From assembly GCF_010723305.1 (NCBI RefSeq), contig NZ_BLKW01000004.1, forward strand, positions 1,364,001-1,428,000: 64,000 bases of DNA, read 5' to 3'. Under the pieces are notes generated by a model. That model was not told the origin of the DNA. It saw nothing but the letters and a program-made list of their open reading frames with translations, and searched no databases. Shown here one piece after another: positions 1,900-12,324 of this stretch. Positions within the stretch are counted from its first letter, which is position 1. The number at the start of each line of letters is the position of its first letter. The stretch is from Mycobacterium botniense. Lineage in GTDB: Bacteria > Actinomycetota > Actinomycetes > Mycobacteriales > Mycobacteriaceae. The position numbers and the translations under genes are program-made.

Positions 1900-3360
1900 G
1901 TGGGCCGCACGCACCGGATCGTGGATTGGAATCCCGAGGACGTTGTGGCATGGGAGGCCGGCAATAAGAAAATTGCGCGGCGCAACCTGCTGTGCATGAT
2001 GGCTTCCGACCACGTCGCTTTCTCGATCTGGGCTCTCTGGTCGGTAATGGTGCTGTTCATGCCGCAATCGGTATACGGATTTTCGCCGGCCGATAAACTG
2101 CTGCTGGGGGCGACCGCGACGCTGTCGGGCGCCTGCCTGCGTATCCCCTACACGTTGGGCATCGCGACCTTCGGTGGCCGCACCTGGACGACGTTTTCGG
2201 CGTTGGTGCTGCTCATTCCCACCGTCGGAACCATCGTGCTGCTGGCAAACCCCGGTCTGCCGTTGTGGGCTTATCTGATTTGTGCGGCACTGACCGGATG
2301 TGGCGGCGCCAACTACGCGGCGTCGATGGCTAATGTCAACGCGTTTTACCCGCAACGGCTCAAAGGCTGGGCCCTGGGGGTCAGCGCCGGCATCGGTAAC
2401 CTCGGGGTGGCGATCGTTCAGGTGGTCGGCCTGGTGGTACTCGCAATCGCCGGTAATCGCCAGCCCTACTGGGTCTGTGCGGTCTACCTGGTGCTGCTGG
2501 CGGTCGTCGCGATCGCGGCTGCGCTGCTGATGGACAACTTGGAGCACGGCATCGAGGTGACCACCATGCGCTCGGTCATGGGCGTGCCTGATACCTGGGT
2601 GCTCGCGCTGCTTTACGTCGGTGCCTTCGGCACGTTTATCGGGTTCTCCTTCGCGTTCGGCCAGGTGTTACAGGTCAATTTTGTTGAGGGTGGGCAAAGC
2701 GCCGCGCAAGCATCACTGCACGCCGCCGAATTCGCGTTCATCGGGCCGCTGCTGGGCTCGCTGGCCCGCATCTACGGCGGGCGGCTGGCTGATCGCTTCG
2801 GCGGGAGCCGTGTCACTCTGGCGGTCTTCATCGGCATGATCGGCGCAACGGGTGCGCTGGCCGGCGTCAGCACTCACGATGACCACACCCCGGGGCCCAC
2901 CACGACGGCCACGATCGTCAGCTATATTGTCTGCCTCATCGTTTTGTTCGTCTTGGCAGGACTCGGCAAAGGGTCGGTGTTCAAGATGATCCCGGCGGTC
3001 ATCGAAGCGCGCAGTCACACGCAGGGCTTCAGCGAACCCGAACGCCGCCACTGGTCCCGCAATATGTCAGGTGCGCTGCTCGGGTTTGCCGCCGCAACCG
3101 GCGCCTTCGGCGGGGTCGGAATCGACCTCGTGCTACGGCAGTCCTACCAGAGCACCGGGTCAGAAACAGCGGCGTTCTGGGTTTTCCTGGCGTTGTATTG
3201 TGTCGCGGCGCTGGTCACGTGGTGGATGTACGTGCGTCGTCCCTTCGCGGTCTGGCCGGTTACCGCCGCGGGGATCGGTCAGCGGTCCGCGTCGCTATCC
3301 GCGCCCGGCGATGCCGGCGGGTTAGCGCAGCCGGCGGTAGCGGGGCGGATCGACCCCTGA
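1900..3360 (+). CDS. narK3: NarK-family nitrate/nitrite transporter
   Basis: 486-residue major facilitator protein with about twelve hydrophobic segments. It carries both nitrate signatures of the NNP/NarK family: a GCGGANYAASMANVNAFYP segment at residues 133-151 and GKGSVFKMIP near 356-365. The start is the GTG at 1900, five bases after a perfect AGGAGG; an overlapping ATG at 1898 is out of frame. Sequence and length resemble mycobacterial NarK3 (Rv0261c) more than NarK1, NarK2 or NarU, as judged from memory of those proteins. The expected role is nitrate uptake or nitrite export across the cytoplasmic membrane. No nitrate reductase or nitrite reductase gene is adjacent. The region upstream has no copy of the sulfur-island element, so co-regulation is not suggested. 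Confidence 0.88.
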   Translation: MGRTHRIVDWNPEDVVAWEAGNKKIARRNLLCMMASDHVAFSIWALWSVMVLFMPQSVYGFSPADKLLLGATATLSGACLRIPYTLGIATFGGRTWTTFSALVLLIPTVGTIVLLANPGLPLWAYLICAALTGCGGANYAASMANVNAFYPQRLKGWALGVSAGIGNLGVAIVQVVGLVVLAIAGNRQPYWVCAVYLVLLAVVAIAAALLMDNLEHGIEVTTMRSVMGVPDTWVLALLYVGAFGTFIGFSFAFGQVLQVNFVEGGQSAAQASLHAAEFAFIGPLLGSLARIYGGRLADRFGGSRVTLAVFIGMIGATGALAGVSTHDDHTPGPTTTATIVSYIVCLIVLFVLAGLGKGSVFKMIPAVIEARSHTQGFSEPERRHWSRNMSGALLGFAAATGAFGGVGIDLVLRQSYQSTGSETAAFWVFLALYCVAALVTWWMYVRRPFAVWPVTAAGIGQRSASLSAPGDAGGLAQPAVAGRIDP

Positions 3361-3422: not shown

Positions 3423-3764
3423 TCACACACCGGGGGCGGCTGGATCTTCCGCTCTGCTCGGCAGGTTTTTGACCGCCGGCGGGTCATTCTCGGTGAGTCC
3501 GACTTTCGACGCGCCGCCGGGTGAGCCGAGCTCGGCGAAAAAGTCGGCGTTGATCTGGGTGTACTCACCCCACTGCTCGGGCAGATCGTCTTCGTAGTAA
3601 ATGGCCTCGACCGGGCAGACCGGCTCGCAGGCACCGCAGTCGACGCATTCATCAGGATGGATGTAGAGCATCCGGGCGCCCTCGTAGATGCAATCGACTG
3701 GGCATTCATCGATGCAGGTCTTGTCTTTGACGTCGACACAGGGTTCGGTAATCACGTAGGTCAT
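3423..3764 (-). CDS. fdxA: 7Fe ferredoxin
   Basis: 113-residue ferredoxin with cysteines at 9, 17, 21, 25 and CxxCxxCxxxCP at 40-51, the pattern of mycobacterial seven-iron ferredoxins (one 3Fe-4S, one 4Fe-4S cluster). The rest, including ADFFAELGSPGGASKVG, matches FdxA/FdxC; length 113 is closest to FdxA. ATG at 3764 is preceded by AAGGAGATG-type spacing. It lies 58 bases downstream of fprA on the same strand, so reductase and ferredoxin are probably co-transcribed. In M. tuberculosis these genes are not neighbours. No DosR-type palindrome is visible in the short gap, unlike dormancy-controlled fdxA. Inferred role: carry electrons from FprA to ferredoxin-dependent enzymes such as the nearby NirA. 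Confidence 0.9.
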   Translation of the reverse strand: MTYVITEPCVDVKDKTCIDECPVDCIYEGARMLYIHPDECVDCGACEPVCPVEAIYYEDDLPEQWGEYTQINADFFAELGSPGGASKVGLTENDPPAVKNLPSRAEDPAAPGV

Positions 3765-3822: not shown

Positions 3823-5190
3823 TCAGCCGTGAGCGACTCGGAGTAGTTCCTCCAGGGTGGCCAGTTTGATTCGTGGCCGGCCGTGCGGTTGGCCGGCTTG
3901 GCGTTCGTGGCGGTCAATGACCTGCCAGTGGTCGGTGGTGACCAGTTGGGGTTGTCGGGTGGCCAGCCAGTGGGCGAGCTCCTCGGGGTGATCGAGCGGG
4001 AAGTTAGCGAGGTGCGCGGAGTCTTTGGCAGCGGCCAGGTCGTCCAGCAGGGTGTCGACGGTGTCTTGGGAGTCTTTTTTGTTGGTGCCGATCACACCGG
4101 TCGGACCGCGTTTGATCCAGCCGACGACATACTCATTGCGGCTGCCGGCGATGCGACCGTTGAGGTTGGGGATGGTGGCGGTTTTCTCATCGAACGGCAG
4201 CCCCGGGGTGGGCACGCCGCGGTAGCCCACGGAACGCACCACCAGCTGGGCCGGGAGCTCTTCACGTGCGCCGGTGTCTTTGGCCACCACACGCCCGCTA
4301 TGGTCGGTGACCAGCTCGTTGCGGCCCAGCACGATGCGCTCGACTTTGCCGTTACCTTTGATCTCGATTGGGGAGGTGAAAAACCGGAAGACGATACGTC
4401 GATGGCCGGGGCTGGGTGTCCGGGCCGCGTAGTCGCGCAGCACCTTGATGTTCTGTTTGGCGGTTTTGCCCGCCGCCGCGGCGTCGTCGTCACTGATGCC
4501 CTCCAGCTGCGCGGGATCGACGACCACATCGACCCCGTCCAACTCGCCCAGTTCCCGCAGCTCCAAGGTGGTAAACGCGGTCTGCAAGGGGCCGCGCCGC
4601 CCGATGATCAGTACCTCCTCGATGCCGCGGGTCCGCAGCGCGGCCAATGCGTGATCGGCGATATCGGTGCCGGCGAGCACCTGAGGATCGGTCACCAGGA
4701 TGCGTGCCACATCGAGGGCCACATTGCCATTGCCGACCACCACTGCCCTGCCCCCGGACAAATCCGGCGCCATGTGCACAAAATGCGGGTGCGCGTTGTA
4801 CCACCCGACAAAATCCACTGCCGCGATACTGCCCGGCAGATCCTCGCCGGGAATATTGAGTGCGCGATCAGACTGCGCGCCGACGGCATAAATAACCGCG
4901 TCATAGCGCTCAGCCAGCTCGGCGGGCTGGACATGCTTGCCCACTACCACATTGCCGAAAAAACGAAAACGCCGATCCGCGGCGGTCTTTTCAAACTGTG
5001 CGCTGATCGACTTGATCTTCGGGTGATCCGGCGCTACCCCGGAACGCACCAGCCCCCATGGCGTAGGCAGCATCTCCAGCATGTCCACCGCAACGTCGAA
5101 CCCACCGGAATCGGCGGCCTTCAACAACGACGCCGCCGCGAAAAACCCCGACGGCCCGGAACCGACAATCGCAACGTAGTACGGACGCAT
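3823..5190 (-). CDS. fprA: NADPH:ferredoxin reductase FprA
   Basis: 455-residue flavoprotein of the adrenodoxin-reductase type (M. tuberculosis FprA has 456). FAD-binding GSGPSG is at residues 10-15 and the second dinucleotide motif GNGNVALDVAR at about 153-163. PTPWGLVRSGVAPDHPKIK and the C-terminal GWIKRGPTGVIGTNKKD are family hallmarks. The start is ATG 5188-5190 behind AGGAGG; a longer reading to 5634 has no homology and crosses the control region. It transfers electrons from NADPH to ferredoxin, and the ferredoxin gene follows directly. A TTGTG-N4-CACAA-N7-TTGTG element lies about 155 bases upstream and is shared with the nirA/trxB intergenic region, tying it to sulfite reduction. Confidence 0.95.
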   Translation of the reverse strand: MRPYYVAIVGSGPSGFFAAASLLKAADSGGFDVAVDMLEMLPTPWGLVRSGVAPDHPKIKSISAQFEKTAADRRFRFFGNVVVGKHVQPAELAERYDAVIYAVGAQSDRALNIPGEDLPGSIAAVDFVGWYNAHPHFVHMAPDLSGGRAVVVGNGNVALDVARILVTDPQVLAGTDIADHALAALRTRGIEEVLIIGRRGPLQTAFTTLELRELGELDGVDVVVDPAQLEGISDDDAAAAGKTAKQNIKVLRDYAARTPSPGHRRIVFRFFTSPIEIKGNGKVERIVLGRNELVTDHSGRVVAKDTGAREELPAQLVVRSVGYRGVPTPGLPFDEKTATIPNLNGRIAGSRNEYVVGWIKRGPTGVIGTNKKDSQDTVDTLLDDLAAAKDSAHLANFPLDHPEELAHWLATRQPQLVTTDHWQVIDRHERQAGQPHGRPRIKLATLEELLRVAHG

Positions 5191-5344
5191 ACTCACCGCC
5201 TCCTGTGGCGCTGACCAGTCTGGTGTTCGGTTTGATACACGCCGCGAACGCGCCGGCGCGACCTGTGCGCCGGTGTTTCGCTGGGTGGACCGGGCATACG
5301 TCCGATAGTTGTCGGTGTGCTGGGTTTGCAGTAGAGGCGTAGAG

Positions 5345-5384
5345 CTTGTGGAGTCACAAGAATCCCTTGTGTGGTCGTCTTGTG
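5345..5384. promoter_or_regulatory. Three-half-site element, copy 1 (probable LysR operator)
   Basis: CTTGTG-GAGT-CACAAG is a perfect inverted repeat (5345-5360). After a gap of seven bases from CACAA comes TTGTG (5367-5371), and a further CTTGTG occurs at 5379-5384. Positions 5346-5376 match 9971-10001 at 26 of 31 bases with identical spacing. Dyads with a short spacer plus an offset half-site are typical of LysR-type operators with recognition and activation sites. The bound protein is inferred to be the LysR encoded at 5628. Confidence 0.65.
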
Positions 5385-5598
5385 GTAGGACGCACGGATC
5401 GTATGGACGGCGCCTGCTCTCAACGGCTAGCAGAAACTTCGGGGCGCATGGGAGTGTGCTGCACATCAGCTGTGAAGCTGACCTGTTGTCACCCGCAACG
5501 GCATATTTGTCGCTGTAATGGGGTCGCGGCACGACTGGGCAGTCATCGGGCTGACGGCAGCACCCTTTATGATGAGAGTGTGAAACTGGTGCACTGCA

Positions 5599-5615
5599 CA
5601 CAAGGTTGATTTGTG
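5599..5615. promoter_or_regulatory. Partial element at the lysR start (autoregulation candidate)
   Basis: CACAA-N7-TTGTG with exactly the spacing of the right part of the two full elements. It lies 26 bases after the TATGAT hexamer and 12 bases before the LysR ATG, a position expected to repress. The left half-site position holds a weaker GGTGCAC. Confidence 0.45.
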
Positions 5616-5627
5616 ACTTGAGCAAGT

Positions 5628-6578
5628 ATGGCACTCAGCGCTCGCATGCCCGAACTTGCCTTGTTCGAAATGTTTCTGGCAATCGCCAAGACAGGTAGTT
5701 TGGGCGGCGCCGCCCGCGAGTTGGGATTGACCCAACAAGCTGTATCGGCACGGCTGGCCTCGATGGAGGCCCAGCTCGGGGTCCGCCTGGCTGTCCGGAC
5801 GACGCGGGGCTCTACGCTGACCCCTGCGGGTGTCCTTGTCGCCGAGTGGGCCGCCCGCCTGGTTGAAGTTGCCCGCGAGGTCGATGCCGGCTTGGGGTCG
5901 CTGCGGGCCGAAAGTCGCCAGCGCATCAGGGTCGCGGCCAGCCAGACGATCGCTGAACAACTGATGCCTCACTGGCTTGTGTCGTTGCACGCCGCGGCTG
6001 CACAGCGGGGCAGCGCTGTCCCCGAGGTCATTCTCACCGCGACCAACAGTGACCACGCTATCGCCGCGGTACGCGATGGCACAGCGGACTTAGGTTTTGT
6101 CGAAAATCCCGGCTCGCCAAAGGGATTAGGCAGCTGCGTCGTGGCACACGACGAACTGGTGATCGTCGTGCCGCCGGACCACAAATGGGCTCGGCGGGCA
6201 CGGGTGGTCAGCGCCGCTGAACTCGCGCAAACACCGCTGGTCACCCGTGAACCCCGCTCAGGTATACGCGATTCACTCACAGTGGCCTTACGCCAGGTGC
6301 TGGGCAGCGATATGCGTCAAGCACCCCCTGTACTCGAATTGACGTCAGCTGCTGCTATGCGCGCCGCTGTCCTCGCCGGCGCGGGACCGGCCGTGATGAG
6401 CCGGCTGGCAGTCGCCGATGATCTGGCGATCGGTCGGCTGCGGGCCGTTAGCGTCCCGGAGTTAAACCTGCGGCGGCAGTTGCGGGCCATCTGGGTTGGT
6501 GGGCGCACGCCGCCGGCGGGTGCAATACGAGATCTACTCAGCCACATCAGGACCCGCACCCCGGCAGCCCGCAAATAG
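5628..6578 (+). CDS. LysR-type transcriptional regulator of the sulfur island
   Basis: 316-residue regulator. The N-terminal winged helix-turn-helix is at about residues 10-68 (FLAIAKTGSLGGAARELGL, QQAVSARLASMEAQLG, STLTPAG), and an effector-binding LysR substrate domain follows from about residue 95. ATG 5628 is the first good start. The gene is divergent from fprA-fdxA and convergent with the nirA-cysH-chelatase operon, ending 48 bases before it. LysR proteins typically control a divergent neighbour and themselves; here matching DNA elements lie in front of fprA, of nirA/trxB and of this gene. Regulation of sulfite/sulfate reduction in response to a sulfur metabolite (as for CysB) is inference; the effector is unknown. 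Confidence 0.88.
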   Translation: MALSARMPELALFEMFLAIAKTGSLGGAARELGLTQQAVSARLASMEAQLGVRLAVRTTRGSTLTPAGVLVAEWAARLVEVAREVDAGLGSLRAESRQRIRVAASQTIAEQLMPHWLVSLHAAAAQRGSAVPEVILTATNSDHAIAAVRDGTADLGFVENPGSPKGLGSCVVAHDELVIVVPPDHKWARRARVVSAAELAQTPLVTREPRSGIRDSLTVALRQVLGSDMRQAPPVLELTSAAAMRAAVLAGAGPAVMSRLAVADDLAIGRLRAVSVPELNLRRQLRAIWVGGRTPPAGAIRDLLSHIRTRTPAARK

Positions 6579-6626
6579 CGTCATCCGGGCCGATGAGAGA
6601 TCGTGCATGCAGCGTGATGGCGTGGG

Positions 6627-7361
6627 TCACGCCGCGGCTTGGTCAACCGAGGCCTGTGCGAAGCGGTCCAGCACGGTCTCGGCGACCAGTCGGTGCGCGC
6701 CGAGCGGTTGAGCCATGGCGATCCCGGTGTCGTGTGCGTAGCTCAACACCCGGTCGGTAATGCGTCCTGGTGCCAGGAACCACGGTGCGATAACGAGACG
6801 GCGGGCGCCGCGCCGCCGCAACTGGTTCACTCCCTCTGCGACCGAGGGCTGAGGCCCGGTGGCGAACGCCATCGTCGCACCGGCCCACCGCGTTCCTGCC
6901 GCAAGGCGGGCTGCCACCGTCGCGGTGCGCGCATTCACTGCGCCGTCCGACGAGCCGGTGGCGACCACGAGCACACCCAATCCTCGGTCGTGCGCCGTCA
7001 CGCCCAACCCGGCCAGCCGTTCACGCAGCACCACCACCAGCCGATCGTCTTCGCCCAGCACGCTGGCCTGCCGCAGACCGGCCACCCCGGCACGTGCCAT
7101 GTGTTGTGGAATGTCGACCCGGGCATGGTAGGCGCTGGCCAGGAGCAAGGGGGTGACAACAGCCCGGTGCGGATCCGGAAGCCCGGCCAGCACGTCCGCT
7201 AAGCGTGGTGAATTTTGTTCGAGGAACGCGATCCGCACGTCGAGCCCGGGCCGCATTGATTTGAGCCGACTGGCCACGGCGCGGACGTTGGCCGCAGACC
7301 TCGGATCCTTGCTGCCGTGCGCAGTGAGCACAAGGGTGTTCACGGGGCGTGCAACCCGCAT
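6627..7361 (-). CDS. che1: Sirohydrochlorin chelatase-like protein
   Basis: 244 residues of the CbiX/SirB family. It opens with LVLTAHGSKDPRS, the HGS metal/tetrapyrrole-binding motif of the first half, and has a second half-domain containing LVIAPWFLAPGRITDR. It is expected to insert iron into sirohydrochlorin, giving the siroheme needed by NirA. It is the last gene of the nirA-cysH operon, as in M. tuberculosis (Rv2391-Rv2393). The ATG at 7361 overlaps cysH by 22 bases. A GTG at 7343 overlapping the cysH TGA (GTGA) is an equally good start by operon logic and would remove six residues. The M. tuberculosis protein is annotated somewhat longer. Confidence 0.85.
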   Translation of the reverse strand: MRVARPVNTLVLTAHGSKDPRSAANVRAVASRLKSMRPGLDVRIAFLEQNSPRLADVLAGLPDPHRAVVTPLLLASAYHARVDIPQHMARAGVAGLRQASVLGEDDRLVVVLRERLAGLGVTAHDRGLGVLVVATGSSDGAVNARTATVAARLAAGTRWAGATMAFATGPQPSVAEGVNQLRRRGARRLVIAPWFLAPGRITDRVLSYAHDTGIAMAQPLGAHRLVAETVLDRFAQASVDQAAA

Positions 7362-8083
7362 TCGGTCTTCGCCTGACCTTGCCAGCGCCCGCTTCGCGGA
7401 TCGGCGCCCGTCGCCGGTTTAGCCGTGCACGGAGCGCAGCCGATCGACGGATAACCTTCGTCGACAAGCGGATTGACCAGCACATTATTTTCGGCGATGT
7501 AATCGGCCATATCCTGGTCGGTCCACGTCGCAAGGGGGTTGACCTTCACCAGGTGGAATTTGTCGTCGAAGCTGACCAGCGGCGCGTTAGCGCGGGTGGG
7601 CGCCTCGCACCGACGCAGCCCGGTCACCCATGCGGAGTAGCCGCGAAGGGCTTTAGCCAGCGGGACGACTTTGCGCAGCCGGCAGCACTCGTTGGGATCA
7701 CGGGCGAACAGGTCCTTGCCGAGCAGTTCGTCTTGCTCGGCCACCGTATGCTCAGGCGTGATATTGAGCAGATGGATGTCGTAGACAGCCTCGGCTGCGT
7801 CACGGGTGCCGATCGTTTCCGGGAAGTGGTAGCCGGTGTCGAGGAAGACCACCGGCACACCGGGGCGCACTTTGGACGCCAGCGACAGCAGTACGGCGTC
7901 TTGCATGTTAGAGGCCACTACCCAGTTACATGTCGCCCACCCGCGGGGTCCCTCGACACCACCGAAATGCTCGTCGGTCCAGCGCAGTATGTCAGTGGCG
8001 CTCGCCCCTTCAAGCTCCGCTGCACCGCGTTCTGCCAGTTCGCGTAGTTCCGCTTCGGTCAATTTGTTCGACTCCCGGGTCAT
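7340..8083 (-). CDS. cysH: Adenylylsulfate (APS) reductase CysH
   Basis: 247 residues. The N-terminal PP-loop-like fold is followed by the cluster-ligand pairs Cys133-Cys134 (ECCRLRK) and Cys216/Cys219 (GCAPC), which mark a 4Fe-4S APS reductase rather than a PAPS reductase. The C-terminal ECGLH motif holds the catalytic cysteine (242). It reduces APS to sulfite using thioredoxin in the cytoplasm. The start ATG at 8083 overlaps the nirA stop in ATGA, indicating translational coupling; the 11 extra residues of a longer reading lie within nirA. A thioredoxin reductase gene is encoded just across the divergent promoter. Confidence 0.95.
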   Translation of the reverse strand: MTRESNKLTEAELRELAERGAAELEGASATDILRWTDEHFGGVEGPRGWATCNWVVASNMQDAVLLSLASKVRPGVPVVFLDTGYHFPETIGTRDAAEAVYDIHLLNITPEHTVAEQDELLGKDLFARDPNECCRLRKVVPLAKALRGYSAWVTGLRRCEAPTRANAPLVSFDDKFHLVKVNPLATWTDQDMADYIAENNVLVNPLVDEGYPSIGCAPCTAKPATGADPRSGRWQGQAKTECGLHAP

Positions 8084-9747
8084 CGTAGTTCTGCTTCGTC
8101 TGCTCGCATCGCCCACTGCGCGAACCGTTCTCCCTCATTGCGGTGTTTGAGAAAGTTGCGCACTACCCGGTCGATGTAATCACCAAGCTCGTGGCTGAGC
8201 ACTTTGTGATGGCGCAGTTTCCGGCCGAAACCACTGTCCACTCCAAGGCCACCGCCCAGGTGCACCTGGAAACCCTCGACTGAACCACCTTCACCGTCGT
8301 CAACCATCTGACCCTTGAAGCCAATGTCGGCCACCTGGATTCGGGCACAGGAGTTTGGGCATCCGTTGACGTGCACGGTGATCGGCACATCGAGTTGGGC
8401 GTTGATGTCGTCGAGGCGGCGCTCCAGTTCGGGCACCAGTGTCTGGGCGCGCACGCGAGTTTCGGCGAACGACAGCTTGCAGAACTCGATCCCGGTGCAG
8501 GCCATGAGATTCCGACGCCAATGCGACGGCCGCGACGGCAACCCCAGCGCATCAAGGCCGGCCACCATCTCGTCGAGTTTGTCGTCGGGAACGTCCAAAA
8601 TGACCAGCTTTTGATACGGAGTGAACCGCGCCCGATCCGATCCGGCCCGCTCCATGAGGTCGGCCACCGCGGACAGAATGGTTCCCGACACTCGTCCGGC
8701 AATGGGGGCCACACCGACCGCGTTGAGCCCGTTTTTCAGTCGCTGAACCCCGACATGGTCGATCGGGTGCGTGATCGGTTCGGGAGCCGGGCCGTCGATG
8801 AGCCGGCGGCCGAGATACTCCGTTTCCAGGACTTCCCGGAATTTCTCGATACCCCAGTCTTTGACCAAAAACTTCAGCCGGGCTTTGGAGCGCAGTCGCC
8901 GGTAACCGTAATCACGGAATATTTTCGTCACAGCTTCCCAGACGTCGGGCACCTCCTCGAGCGGCACCCACGCGCCAACCCGCTGGGCGAGCATCGGATT
9001 TGTCGACAGGCCACCACCGACCCACAGGTCCATCCCGGGGCCGTGCTCGGGATGATTGACGCCGATAAACGCGACGTCATGGGTCTCATGAGAGACGTCC
9101 TGCAGACCCGATATCGCCGTTTTGTACTTGCGGGGCAAGTTCGCATACTCAGGATTGCCCAAAAAGCGCCGCAGGATCTCCTCGATCGCTGGCGAAGGGT
9201 CGAGCACCTCCTGGAGTGATTCGCCGGCAAGCGGTGAACCGTGGATAGCGCGCGGGCAGTCACCGCAGGCCTCAGTCGTTTGCAAACCAACCGCGGCCAG
9301 ACGCCGCCAGATCTCGGGAACGTTTTCGATCTCAATCCAGTGGAACTGCACGTTCTCCCGGTCACCGATATCGGCGGTGTCACGGGCGAACTCGGTTGAG
9401 ATCTCCCCCAGTGTCCGCAGTGTCGCCACCGACATCGGCTTACCATCGGAGCGGACCCGCATCATAAAGTAACGGGCCTCGATGGTGTCGATGTGTTCGT
9501 CACCGGTCCAGGTGCCGTCATAACCCTGCTCGCGCTGGGTGTAGAGACCCATCCAGCGGAAGCGCCCACGTAAATCCGTTTTGTCGATGCTATCGAAACC
9601 CTGCTTGGCGTAGACGTTGATGATGCGGTCCCGGACATTCAGCGGCGCATCATCCTGCTTGAACTTCTCGTTGTCATTAAGCGGCTCGCGCTCACCGAGG
9701 GCCCACTGGCCTTCACTGCGAGTTTTGGTGGGTCGCGGTGCGCTCAT
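8080..9747 (-). CDS. nirA: Ferredoxin-dependent sulfite reductase NirA
   Basis: 555 residues, very close to mycobacterial NirA (SirA). It reduces sulfite to sulfide with six electrons from reduced ferredoxin using siroheme coupled to a 4Fe-4S cluster. Cluster cysteines are visible in ACTGIEFCK (about residue 415) and NGCPNSCAR (about residue 462). The ACGDC motif and the ARYFMMR tyrosine correspond to the Tyr-Cys pair near the active site. ATG 9745-9747 follows GGAGG. A frame open further to 9852 has no family support. First gene of nirA-cysH-che1. The leader contains a strong hairpin and the shared element lies about 220 bases upstream. Confidence 0.95.
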   Translation of the reverse strand: MSAPRPTKTRSEGQWALGEREPLNDNEKFKQDDAPLNVRDRIINVYAKQGFDSIDKTDLRGRFRWMGLYTQREQGYDGTWTGDEHIDTIEARYFMMRVRSDGKPMSVATLRTLGEISTEFARDTADIGDRENVQFHWIEIENVPEIWRRLAAVGLQTTEACGDCPRAIHGSPLAGESLQEVLDPSPAIEEILRRFLGNPEYANLPRKYKTAISGLQDVSHETHDVAFIGVNHPEHGPGMDLWVGGGLSTNPMLAQRVGAWVPLEEVPDVWEAVTKIFRDYGYRRLRSKARLKFLVKDWGIEKFREVLETEYLGRRLIDGPAPEPITHPIDHVGVQRLKNGLNAVGVAPIAGRVSGTILSAVADLMERAGSDRARFTPYQKLVILDVPDDKLDEMVAGLDALGLPSRPSHWRRNLMACTGIEFCKLSFAETRVRAQTLVPELERRLDDINAQLDVPITVHVNGCPNSCARIQVADIGFKGQMVDDGEGGSVEGFQVHLGGGLGVDSGFGRKLRHHKVLSHELGDYIDRVVRNFLKHRNEGERFAQWAMRADEAELR

Positions 9748-9767
9748 GTCGCAATCCTCCTTAGCGA

Positions 9768-9820
9768 CGGTCGCCGAGTAGCACCCATCAGCGGAAGGTG
9801 CCTCCCAGTAACGGCGACCG
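9768..9820 (-). promoter_or_regulatory. Strong leader hairpin in front of nirA
   Basis: CGGTCGCCG (9768-9776) pairs perfectly with CGGCGACCG (9812-9820). An inner GCACC/GGTGC stem (9781-9785 with 9797-9801) can extend it. It ends eight bases from the nirA SD, so it would sit in the mRNA leader. It could be an attenuator, a translation-control structure or simply stable secondary structure; no known riboswitch class was recognised. Confidence 0.4.
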
Positions 9821-9968
9821 CTTGCCGGCACATGTGGGCAAGCCCACAACATCGAAGTCAGAAGTGCCCAGCCAGCGGCACGCCGATCGTTGGCATTGCT
9901 TCGCGTGGTTCGGCGAGTTCACATTCTCGATGGTTCACTGCCCGCGACTGCGGTAGTAGGTGTCGGGA

Positions 9969-9996
9969 TGTTGTGGGGTCACAACATTTCCTTGTG
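9969..9996. promoter_or_regulatory. Three-half-site element, copy 2 (probable LysR operator)
   Basis: TGTTGTG-GGGT-CACAACA is a perfect 7-4-7 inverted repeat (9969-9986), followed by CTTGTG at 9991-9996. Geometry is identical to the copy at 5345: TTGTG-N4-CACAA-N7-TTGTG. It lies between nirA and trxB, about 220 and 130 bases from the two starts. Confidence 0.65.
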
Positions 9997-10127
9997 TGAT
10001 CTTTCTGCCGAGATATCGCCGGCTTGGATTAGTTTTGTCATTGTGTCTTAGCCTGTCATCACAGTGACCGAATAATCATCGGCTGGCGGATGCCATCGCT
10101 GGTGAATGTTGTGGCGGAGAGGCTTGT

Positions 10128-11099
10128 ATGGTTGGCGCCCCTGCTGTTCGTGATGTGATTGTTGTGGGTTCTGGTCCGGCTGGGTATACGGCGGCGTTGT
10201 ATGCGGCGCGTGCGCAGTTGGCGCCGCTGGTGTTTGAGGGGACGTCGTTTGGTGGTGCGCTGATGACCACGACGGAGGTGGAGAACTATCCGGGGTTTCG
10301 GGAGGGGATCACCGGGCCGCAGTTGATGGAGGAGATGCGCGAGCAGGCGCTGCGGTTTGGTGCGGATTTACGGATGGAAGATGTGGAGGAGGTCTCGCTG
10401 CAGGGGCCGGTGAAATCGGTGGTGACTGCCGAGGGCCGTTATCAGGCGCGGGCGGTGATTTTAGCGATGGGCGCGGCGGCGCGGTATTTGGATGTGCCTG
10501 GTGAGCAGGAGTTTTTGGGCCGCGGGGTTAGTTCGTGTGCCACCTGTGACGGGTTTTTCTTTCGTGATCAAGATGTCGCGGTGATCGGCGGTGGGGATTC
10601 GGCGATGGAAGAGGCGCTGTTTTTGACCCGGTTTGCCCGCAGCGTCACCATCGTGCATCGCCGTGAGCAGTTCCGGGCGTCGAAAATCATGCTGGATCGC
10701 GCCCGCCACAACGACACGATTCGGTTTATGACCAACCATGTGGTGCTCGCCGTGCACGGTGATACCCGTGTGACCGGATTGCAGTTGCGTGATACCCGCA
10801 CCGGTGCCCACACCACGCTGGCAGTCAGCGGAGTGTTCATCGCCATCGGTCACGAGCCGCGCTCACAGCTGGTGCGCGGCATCATCGACTTAGACCCCGA
10901 CGGCTACGTGCTGGTCCAGGGACGCACCACCCACACTTCCCTCGACGGTGTGTTCGCCGCCGGCGACCTGGTGGACCGCACCTACCGGCAGGCCGTCACC
11001 GCCGCCGGCAGCGGTTGCGCCGCCGCCATCGACGCCGAACGCTGGCTGGCCGAACACGCACACATACCTGCCGACACCGTGAGTGGGGCACAGCGATGA
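10128..11099 (+). CDS. trxB: Thioredoxin reductase
   Basis: 323 residues. FAD motif GSGPAG (14-19), redox-active CATC (Cys137, Cys140), NADPH motif GGGDSA (154-159) and the C-terminal [10 protein letters not shown] block define a low-molecular-weight thioredoxin reductase. ATG 10128 follows GGAGAGG. It resembles mycobacterial TrxB2, which in M. tuberculosis sits with trxC near the origin, so this is probably an additional copy placed with sulfur genes. No thioredoxin gene follows it here. The inferred task is to keep thioredoxin reduced for CysH. It is divergent from nirA with a shared control element. The first third uses many T-ending codons compared with its end, which may reflect its history. 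Confidence 0.93.
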
Positions 11100-12310: not shown

Positions 12311-12324
12311 TTGTGATCGCACAA
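12311..12324. promoter_or_regulatory. TTGTG-ATCG-CACAA palindrome upstream of adhA
   Basis: Perfect 5-4-5 dyad with the core geometry of the elements at 5346 and 9971, in an AT-rich stretch between adhA and the preceding gene. A further CACAA at 12331-12335 lies nearby, but the N7-spaced third half-site is absent. Same regulator is possible, not shown. Confidence 0.4.

Follow-up and report, generated by a model that had tools for sequence, protein, structure and literature searches.

A three-half-site element predicted to dock a YeiE-like LysR regulator at sulfite genes of mycobacteria

Which protein reads an element that recurs, with the same spacing, in two divergent intergenic regions of one sulfur island, and which of the flanking genes does it serve? 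The question is raised by a stretch of 64,000 nucleotides of Mycobacterium botniense (GCF_010723305.1, NZ_BLKW01000004.1, positions 1,364,001-1,428,000, forward strand; hereafter the window), in which an earlier, sequence-only reading had reported TTGTG-N4-CACAA-N7-TTGTG at 5346-5371 and 9971-9996. Both copies were confirmed, with 26 of 31 bases identical between 5346-5376 and 9971-10001, and they occupy the divergent regions fprA/lysR and nirA/trxB, respectively. The element is very probably the docking site of a regulator that activates genes of sulfite reduction, oxidation or export in many mycobacteria. The coordinates of the features are collected in Table 1.

The genome of M. botniense (4.3 Mb) was searched whole for the element, and the reversed pattern served as the control in the genome searches. 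The exact element occurs three times and the exact reversed control not at all. The third copy (C2:1269633), overlooked in the first reading, is flanked by a divergently oriented acyl-CoA dehydrogenase gene (fadE) and by pntAa, which codes for the alpha subunit of the NADPH-making NAD(P) transhydrogenase (NCBIfam model over cut-off). With up to three mismatches, four matches were found in the window, compared to 1.10 expected (four were reached in 5 of 100 shuffles); with up to two mismatches, the whole genome gave 12 matches for the element and 22 for the reversed control, so that loose matches are uninformative and only the exact copies represent signal. An extended form of the pattern, at up to three mismatches, gave three further places in the genome versus two for the control, and therefore only C4:1930389, beside a second lysR, was kept as a candidate. 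The same genome contains a second nirA-cysH-lysR set (L120 1867-5550, G000:C4; 84%, 69% and 80% identity), and a degenerate element occurs about 3 kb from that set, before a DUF1643 gene (L120:7723-8325).

Conservation was assessed in 198 congeneric genomes, sampled from a larger group, in which both the exact element and the LysR protein (E<=1e-60) were searched. The exact element was found 92 times, as opposed to four matches of the reversed pattern. The view that the element is chance or inherited sequence devoid of function would agree with its loose matches, which at two to three mismatches are no more frequent than chance, but these 92 sites, together with a fixed geometry across unrelated target genes (see below), render it scarcely credible.

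The sequence-only reading had assigned the element to the LysR encoded at 5628, whose N-terminal HTH_1 (PF00126, 69.7 bits) and C-terminal LysR_substrate (PF03466, 127.6 bits) domains both score over cut-off. The element within the fprA/lysR region conforms to the divergent layout of the LysR family, in which the operator lies in the common region. Occurrence of the motif in unrelated genomes lacking the LysR gene had been named as evidence that would count against the assignment. Exact elements are present in 52 of the 198 genomes, every one of which also has the LysR (69 genomes in all); the 129 LysR-less congeners have no exact element (Fisher 2.9e-33, a value that ignores kinship). The element is thus tied to this LysR and its relatives. 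Among the 17 LysR-containing genomes without an exact element, eight have one-mismatch elements adjoining lysR, and eight others, with LysR proteins of 59-64% identity, lack even a one-mismatch element, and in four of them a SLAC1/TDT gene is preceded by a solitary dyad (G315 was left out). All 11 genomes checked from other genera have a relative of the LysR (E<=1e-30), but three of them matched the reversed control alone and this comparison therefore does not discriminate. In 296 genomes at the class level, the extended element with one mismatch matched in eight: five of the same genus (M. botniense included), two of the same family and one of another family of the class (G475:C2:25557).

The composition of the element was resolved by counting its parts. 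The inner dyad CACAA-N7-TTGTG occurs exactly three times in the window, compared to 0.03 expected, a number reached in none of 100 shuffles; one of these is a solitary dyad at 5599-5615, likewise overlooked in the first reading. In the retrieved loci (1.38 Mb, redundant), 51 solitary N7 dyads were found versus two solitary N4 dyads, with about 1.3 of each expected at equal base frequencies. The N4 dyad is hence ruled out as the core unit. Deduplication leaves 44 N7 dyads, of which 28 precede lysR starts, 15 precede SLAC1/TDT or FAD/NAD(P) genes and one is near neither; several of the 44 are full elements with one mismatch. The core of the element is the N7 dyad, accompanied by a third half-site, and not the N4 dyad. 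The dyad at 5599-5615 probably represents an autoregulatory site that lacks the half-site for activation. A lone N4 dyad, TTGTGATCGCACAA, which lacks the third half-site, is found at 12311-12324 and is probably a chance occurrence. One might suppose that another factor, e.g., of the CRP/FNR type, binds the element and that lysR is linked to it by location alone, since TGTG-half palindromes occur in CRP sites as well and 17 LysR-containing genomes are without the exact element. This appears very unlikely in view of the absence of the element from all LysR-less congeners, the clustering of solitary dyads at lysR starts, and the pntAa copies, which are far from lysR yet confined to genomes that possess it.

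The element is directional. It reads CACAA-N7-TTGTG-N4-CACAA towards its target, and in M. botniense it faces nirA, fprA and pntAa. All 92 exact sites were labelled individually, distinguishing between the target side and the mirror side. A labelled gene lies downstream of 82 of them (nirA in 23, fprA in 17, pntAa in 12, fdxA in 11, SLAC1/TDT in 9, and sulfite oxidase and an unnamed FAD/NAD(P) protein in 5 each); of the 10 without a labelled gene downstream, five have lysR opposite and nine keep the CTAC box described below. On the mirror side, 37 sites are without a labelled gene; the others have lysR (38), fadE (11) or trxB (6). In none of the 92 sites is lysR, trxB or fadE downstream, nor is it when the set is widened to 111 distinct exact sites (96 labelled) from all retrieved loci, including loci chosen for their LysR. 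Only among the 32 one-mismatch sites do three point the opposite way, to lysR or fadE.

Alignment of the 105 exact sites that have a labelled gene beside them shows that the same promoter accompanies the element. A CTAC box is found 9-12 bases past the last half-site (columns 37-40, 78-84% conserved), followed about 21 bases further by an ACCAT-like box (columns 62, 65 and 66; 83, 76 and 82%). Of the 92 exact sites, 86 have CTAC at the fixed spacing towards the target and one has it towards the mirror side; in the wider set the corresponding numbers are 97 and 1 of 111, and both boxes are present in 77. The joint control by LysR of fprA-fdxA, nirA-cysH-che1 and trxB, as originally proposed, is consequently supported for the first two, which the element covers, but not for trxB, which was rejected as a target because the promoter boxes are missing from its side. 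Among the exact sites, trxB was observed at 6 of the 23 nirA sites, each time on the mirror side, with some of the stretches stopping short of it; some effect of the element on trxB may nevertheless exist. The original proposal, a CysB-like regulator of sulfate/cysteine supply that controls both sides of the divergent regions, can invoke cysH in the operon and some shared sequence on the trxB side in close relatives, and is considered improbable. The search of the genome and its relatives with their flanking genes, which the sequence-only reading had recommended, yielded the pntAa copy and target classes that recur in the relatives.

The start codons of the relatives allow the promoter to be positioned. 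In 16 of 18 fprA leaders, many of them from closely related species, column 74 holds a start codon, which in 13 leaders is the first codon of the FprA frame, as would fit a leaderless transcript. If column 74 is taken as the transcript start, the centre of the N7 dyad falls at about -65 and the third half-site at about -50. A recognition dyad near -65, accompanied by a half-site nearer the promoter, is the textbook arrangement of LysR activators, and the -65/-50 arrangement, as measured from this putative start, is consistent with it. In M. botniense, the predicted nirA and fprA leaders (9747-9923 and 5190-5298) begin with a short leaderless frame in a different register from the main gene. 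Leader-peptide attenuation before nirA was also considered and rejected, as the peptides vary from one species to the next and have no consistent run of cysteines, though several contain some.

The nature of the signal is suggested by the targets. Relatives have the same element before genes for sulfite oxidase or SLAC1/TDT transporters, and the signal is therefore more likely to be sulfite than the sulfate or cysteine of the sequence-only reading. The SLAC1/TDT protein is presumed from its family to be a sulfite exporter; a sequence search of the PDB gave no match for it. We consider it likely that a YeiE-like LysR encoded at 5628, with sulfite as the probable ligand, binds the dyad CACAA-N7-TTGTG and activates the targets, and that the solitary dyad before lysR probably serves in autoregulation. 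At the targets, the third half-site, 4 bp further downstream of the dyad, would bring the LysR within reach of the -35 region in a weak promoter (CTAC ... ACCAT). The window would contain two of the direct targets in this species, fprA-fdxA and nirA-cysH-che1, and pntAa, outside it, would be the third; together they may reduce sulfite, the presumed substrate of NirA, to sulfide, with electrons passing from transhydrogenase to NADPH, FprA, ferredoxin and NirA; the che1 product probably serves the siroheme of NirA. Alternatively, the same LysR, operator and targets might respond to another ligand (e.g., O-acetylserine, adenosine 5'-phosphosulfate (APS), thiosulfate or nitrite) and report sulfur or nitrogen status instead of sulfite stress. 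The presence of cysH in the island, a NirA match named nitrite reductase, a nearby gene for a NarK-like nitrate/nitrite transporter (1900-3360, under model cut-offs) and an effector-domain fold that resembles those of CcmR and CynR as well accord with this possibility. It is nonetheless rather unlikely, inasmuch as YeiE is the top effector-domain match and sulfite is the sole compound common to sulfite oxidase, sulfite reductase and the presumed sulfite exporter, each of which stands under this element.

The regulator appears to have kept its operator while its outputs changed. When 88 LysR proteins are arranged in a tree, the clades correspond for the most part to the kind of target adjacent to lysR (nirA island, SLAC1/TDT, sulfite oxidase and two FAD/NAD(P) groups), and the element remains constant; a FAD/NAD(P) locus (L177) placed within the sulfite oxidase group is one exception, and others are some rows that have no labelled target and SLAC1/TDT in distant rows that lack the full element. 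The island is also carried by the non-pathogenic M. gastri (L014). The pntAa copy occurs in 12 genomes, all of which contain the lysR-fprA island; nirA is present in the retrieved island of 11, and the stretch of the genome G201 shows only cysH, che1, lysR and fprA. Since the pntAa copies are confined to such genomes, the transhydrogenase appears to have joined the sulfite-reducing version of the module; reduction of sulfite requires six electrons per molecule. On balance, we favor a single sulfite-sensing LysR lineage with a fixed operator-promoter architecture, in which the output module was swapped between clades (reduction by NirA, oxidation by sulfite oxidase, export by SLAC1/TDT, or an unnamed flavoprotein) and in which the reducing version also commands the electron supply that runs from the membrane transhydrogenase by way of NADPH and ferredoxin.

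The flavoprotein family that repeatedly carries the element (L031:6994-8142, L025:6959-8011 and relatives) binds FAD/NAD(P) and has no NCBIfam match over cut-off; its predicted structure has a predicted local distance difference test (pLDDT) score of 59.5, and it is a candidate sulfite-handling enzyme. In one relative (L135), a DUF202 gene is preceded by the element together with the promoter boxes, and a further copy is situated upstream of a PPE gene (L135:7487-7840, L135:5932-7245). Within the window, a phosphoketolase frame at 53-1165 matches the C-terminal half of family models alone and may be cut or extend past the window.

Table 1. Positions of the operator, promoter and gene features in the window
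Feature	Position	Strand	Remarks
Three-half-site operator of fprA, TTGTGGAGTCACAAGAATCCCTTGTG	5346..5371	-	Towards fprA: CACAA 5371-5367, N7, TTGTG 5359-5355, N4, CACAA 5350-5346
Three-half-site operator of nirA, TTGTGGGGTCACAACATTTCCTTGTG	9971..9996	-	Towards nirA: CACAA 9996-9992, N7, TTGTG 9984-9980, N4, CACAA 9975-9971
Core N7 dyad CACAA-N7-TTGTG, proposed LysR recognition site	5355..5371	.	Centre about -65 from the inferred start
Solitary N7 dyad, CACAAGGTTGATTTGTG, proposed autoregulatory operator	5599..5615	+	12 bp 5' of lysR start codon
Conserved CTAC box, fprA promoter (-35 region)	5331..5334	-
ACTAT, -10-like, fprA promoter	5305..5309	-	Transcription inferred to begin at about 5297-5298, as judged from leaderless start codons of relatives
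Conserved CTAC box, nirA promoter	9956..9959	-
ACCAT, -10-like, nirA promoter	9930..9934	-	Inferred transcript start about 9922-9923
LysR-type regulator, 316 amino acids, proposed binder of all these sites	5628..6578	+	E159, counterpart of YeiE E145
fprA, NADPH-ferredoxin reductase (predicted target)	3823..5190	-	FprA 1lqt, 816.6 bits
fdxA, ferredoxin, downstream of fprA (predicted target by operon)	3423..3764	-
nirA, ferredoxin-dependent sulfite/nitrite reductase (predicted target)	8080..9747	-	1zj8, 1083.5 bits; NIR_SIR
cysH, APS/3'-phosphoadenosine 5'-phosphosulfate reductase (predicted target by operon)	7340..8083	-
che1, CbiX-type chelatase (predicted target by operon)	6627..7361	-
trxB, thioredoxin reductase, mirror side of nirA operator	10128..11099	+	Control not supported

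As of 2011, according to a review of that year (PMC3141025), no CysB-like regulator governing sulfur assimilation was known from mycobacteria, and a further paper (PMC8557817) describes Rhodococcus IGTS8 as lacking homologs of the known regulators. Among the literature titles searched, with subscription journals mostly outside the scope, none was found that describes this regulon or a later mycobacterial CysB-like regulator. The present analysis supplies a gene, a 26-bp operator, a promoter predicted at the base level and a set of target genes that are open to direct testing. It also suggests that one signal couples sulfite reduction to an NADPH-making transhydrogenase, and it offers a natural experiment, wherein a regulator retains its operator while its client genes change.

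Several known systems bear comparison. YeiE, the sulfite-sensing LysR of the Enterobacteriaceae (7erp, 7erq, 7fdf, 8sbh), is closest to this LysR in effector domain and fold, with 27-30% identity over the domain in a comparison of the proteins. Residue E159, the counterpart (by residue counting) of YeiE E145, is kept in 106 of the 107 proteins compared; the title of structure 7fdf gives E145 a role in sulfite, and PMC9068703 names YeiE once. The curated YeiE model, however, gives this LysR 146 bits versus a cut-off of 480, and YeiE acts on cysJI and yeiH, as opposed to the genes for NirA, FprA, FdxA, PntAa, SLAC1/TDT and sulfite oxidase. The best-scoring NCBIfam model is that of the selenium-associated LysR, LysR_Sec_metab (NF040786), at 158.7 bits, under its cut-off of 250. 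CysB and Cbl of the enterobacterial cysteine regulon share the LysR family and the link to assimilatory sulfur genes, but the resemblance in sequence and fold is weaker, CysB ranking below YeiE and CcmR in all three comparisons and thus not being the closest relative; moreover, unlike CysB and Cbl, relatives of this LysR adjoin sulfite oxidase and SLAC1/TDT genes. In geometry, LysR activators of the BenM/CbnR type combine, as do the predicted promoters here, an N7 dyad near -65, a half-site near -50, an adjoining weak promoter and a solitary dyad at the regulator gene. The mycobacterial element differs from theirs in its sequence, CACAA-N7-TTGTG-N4-CACAA, in its fixed CTAC...ACCAT promoter and, often, in a start codon at the inferred start of the transcript.
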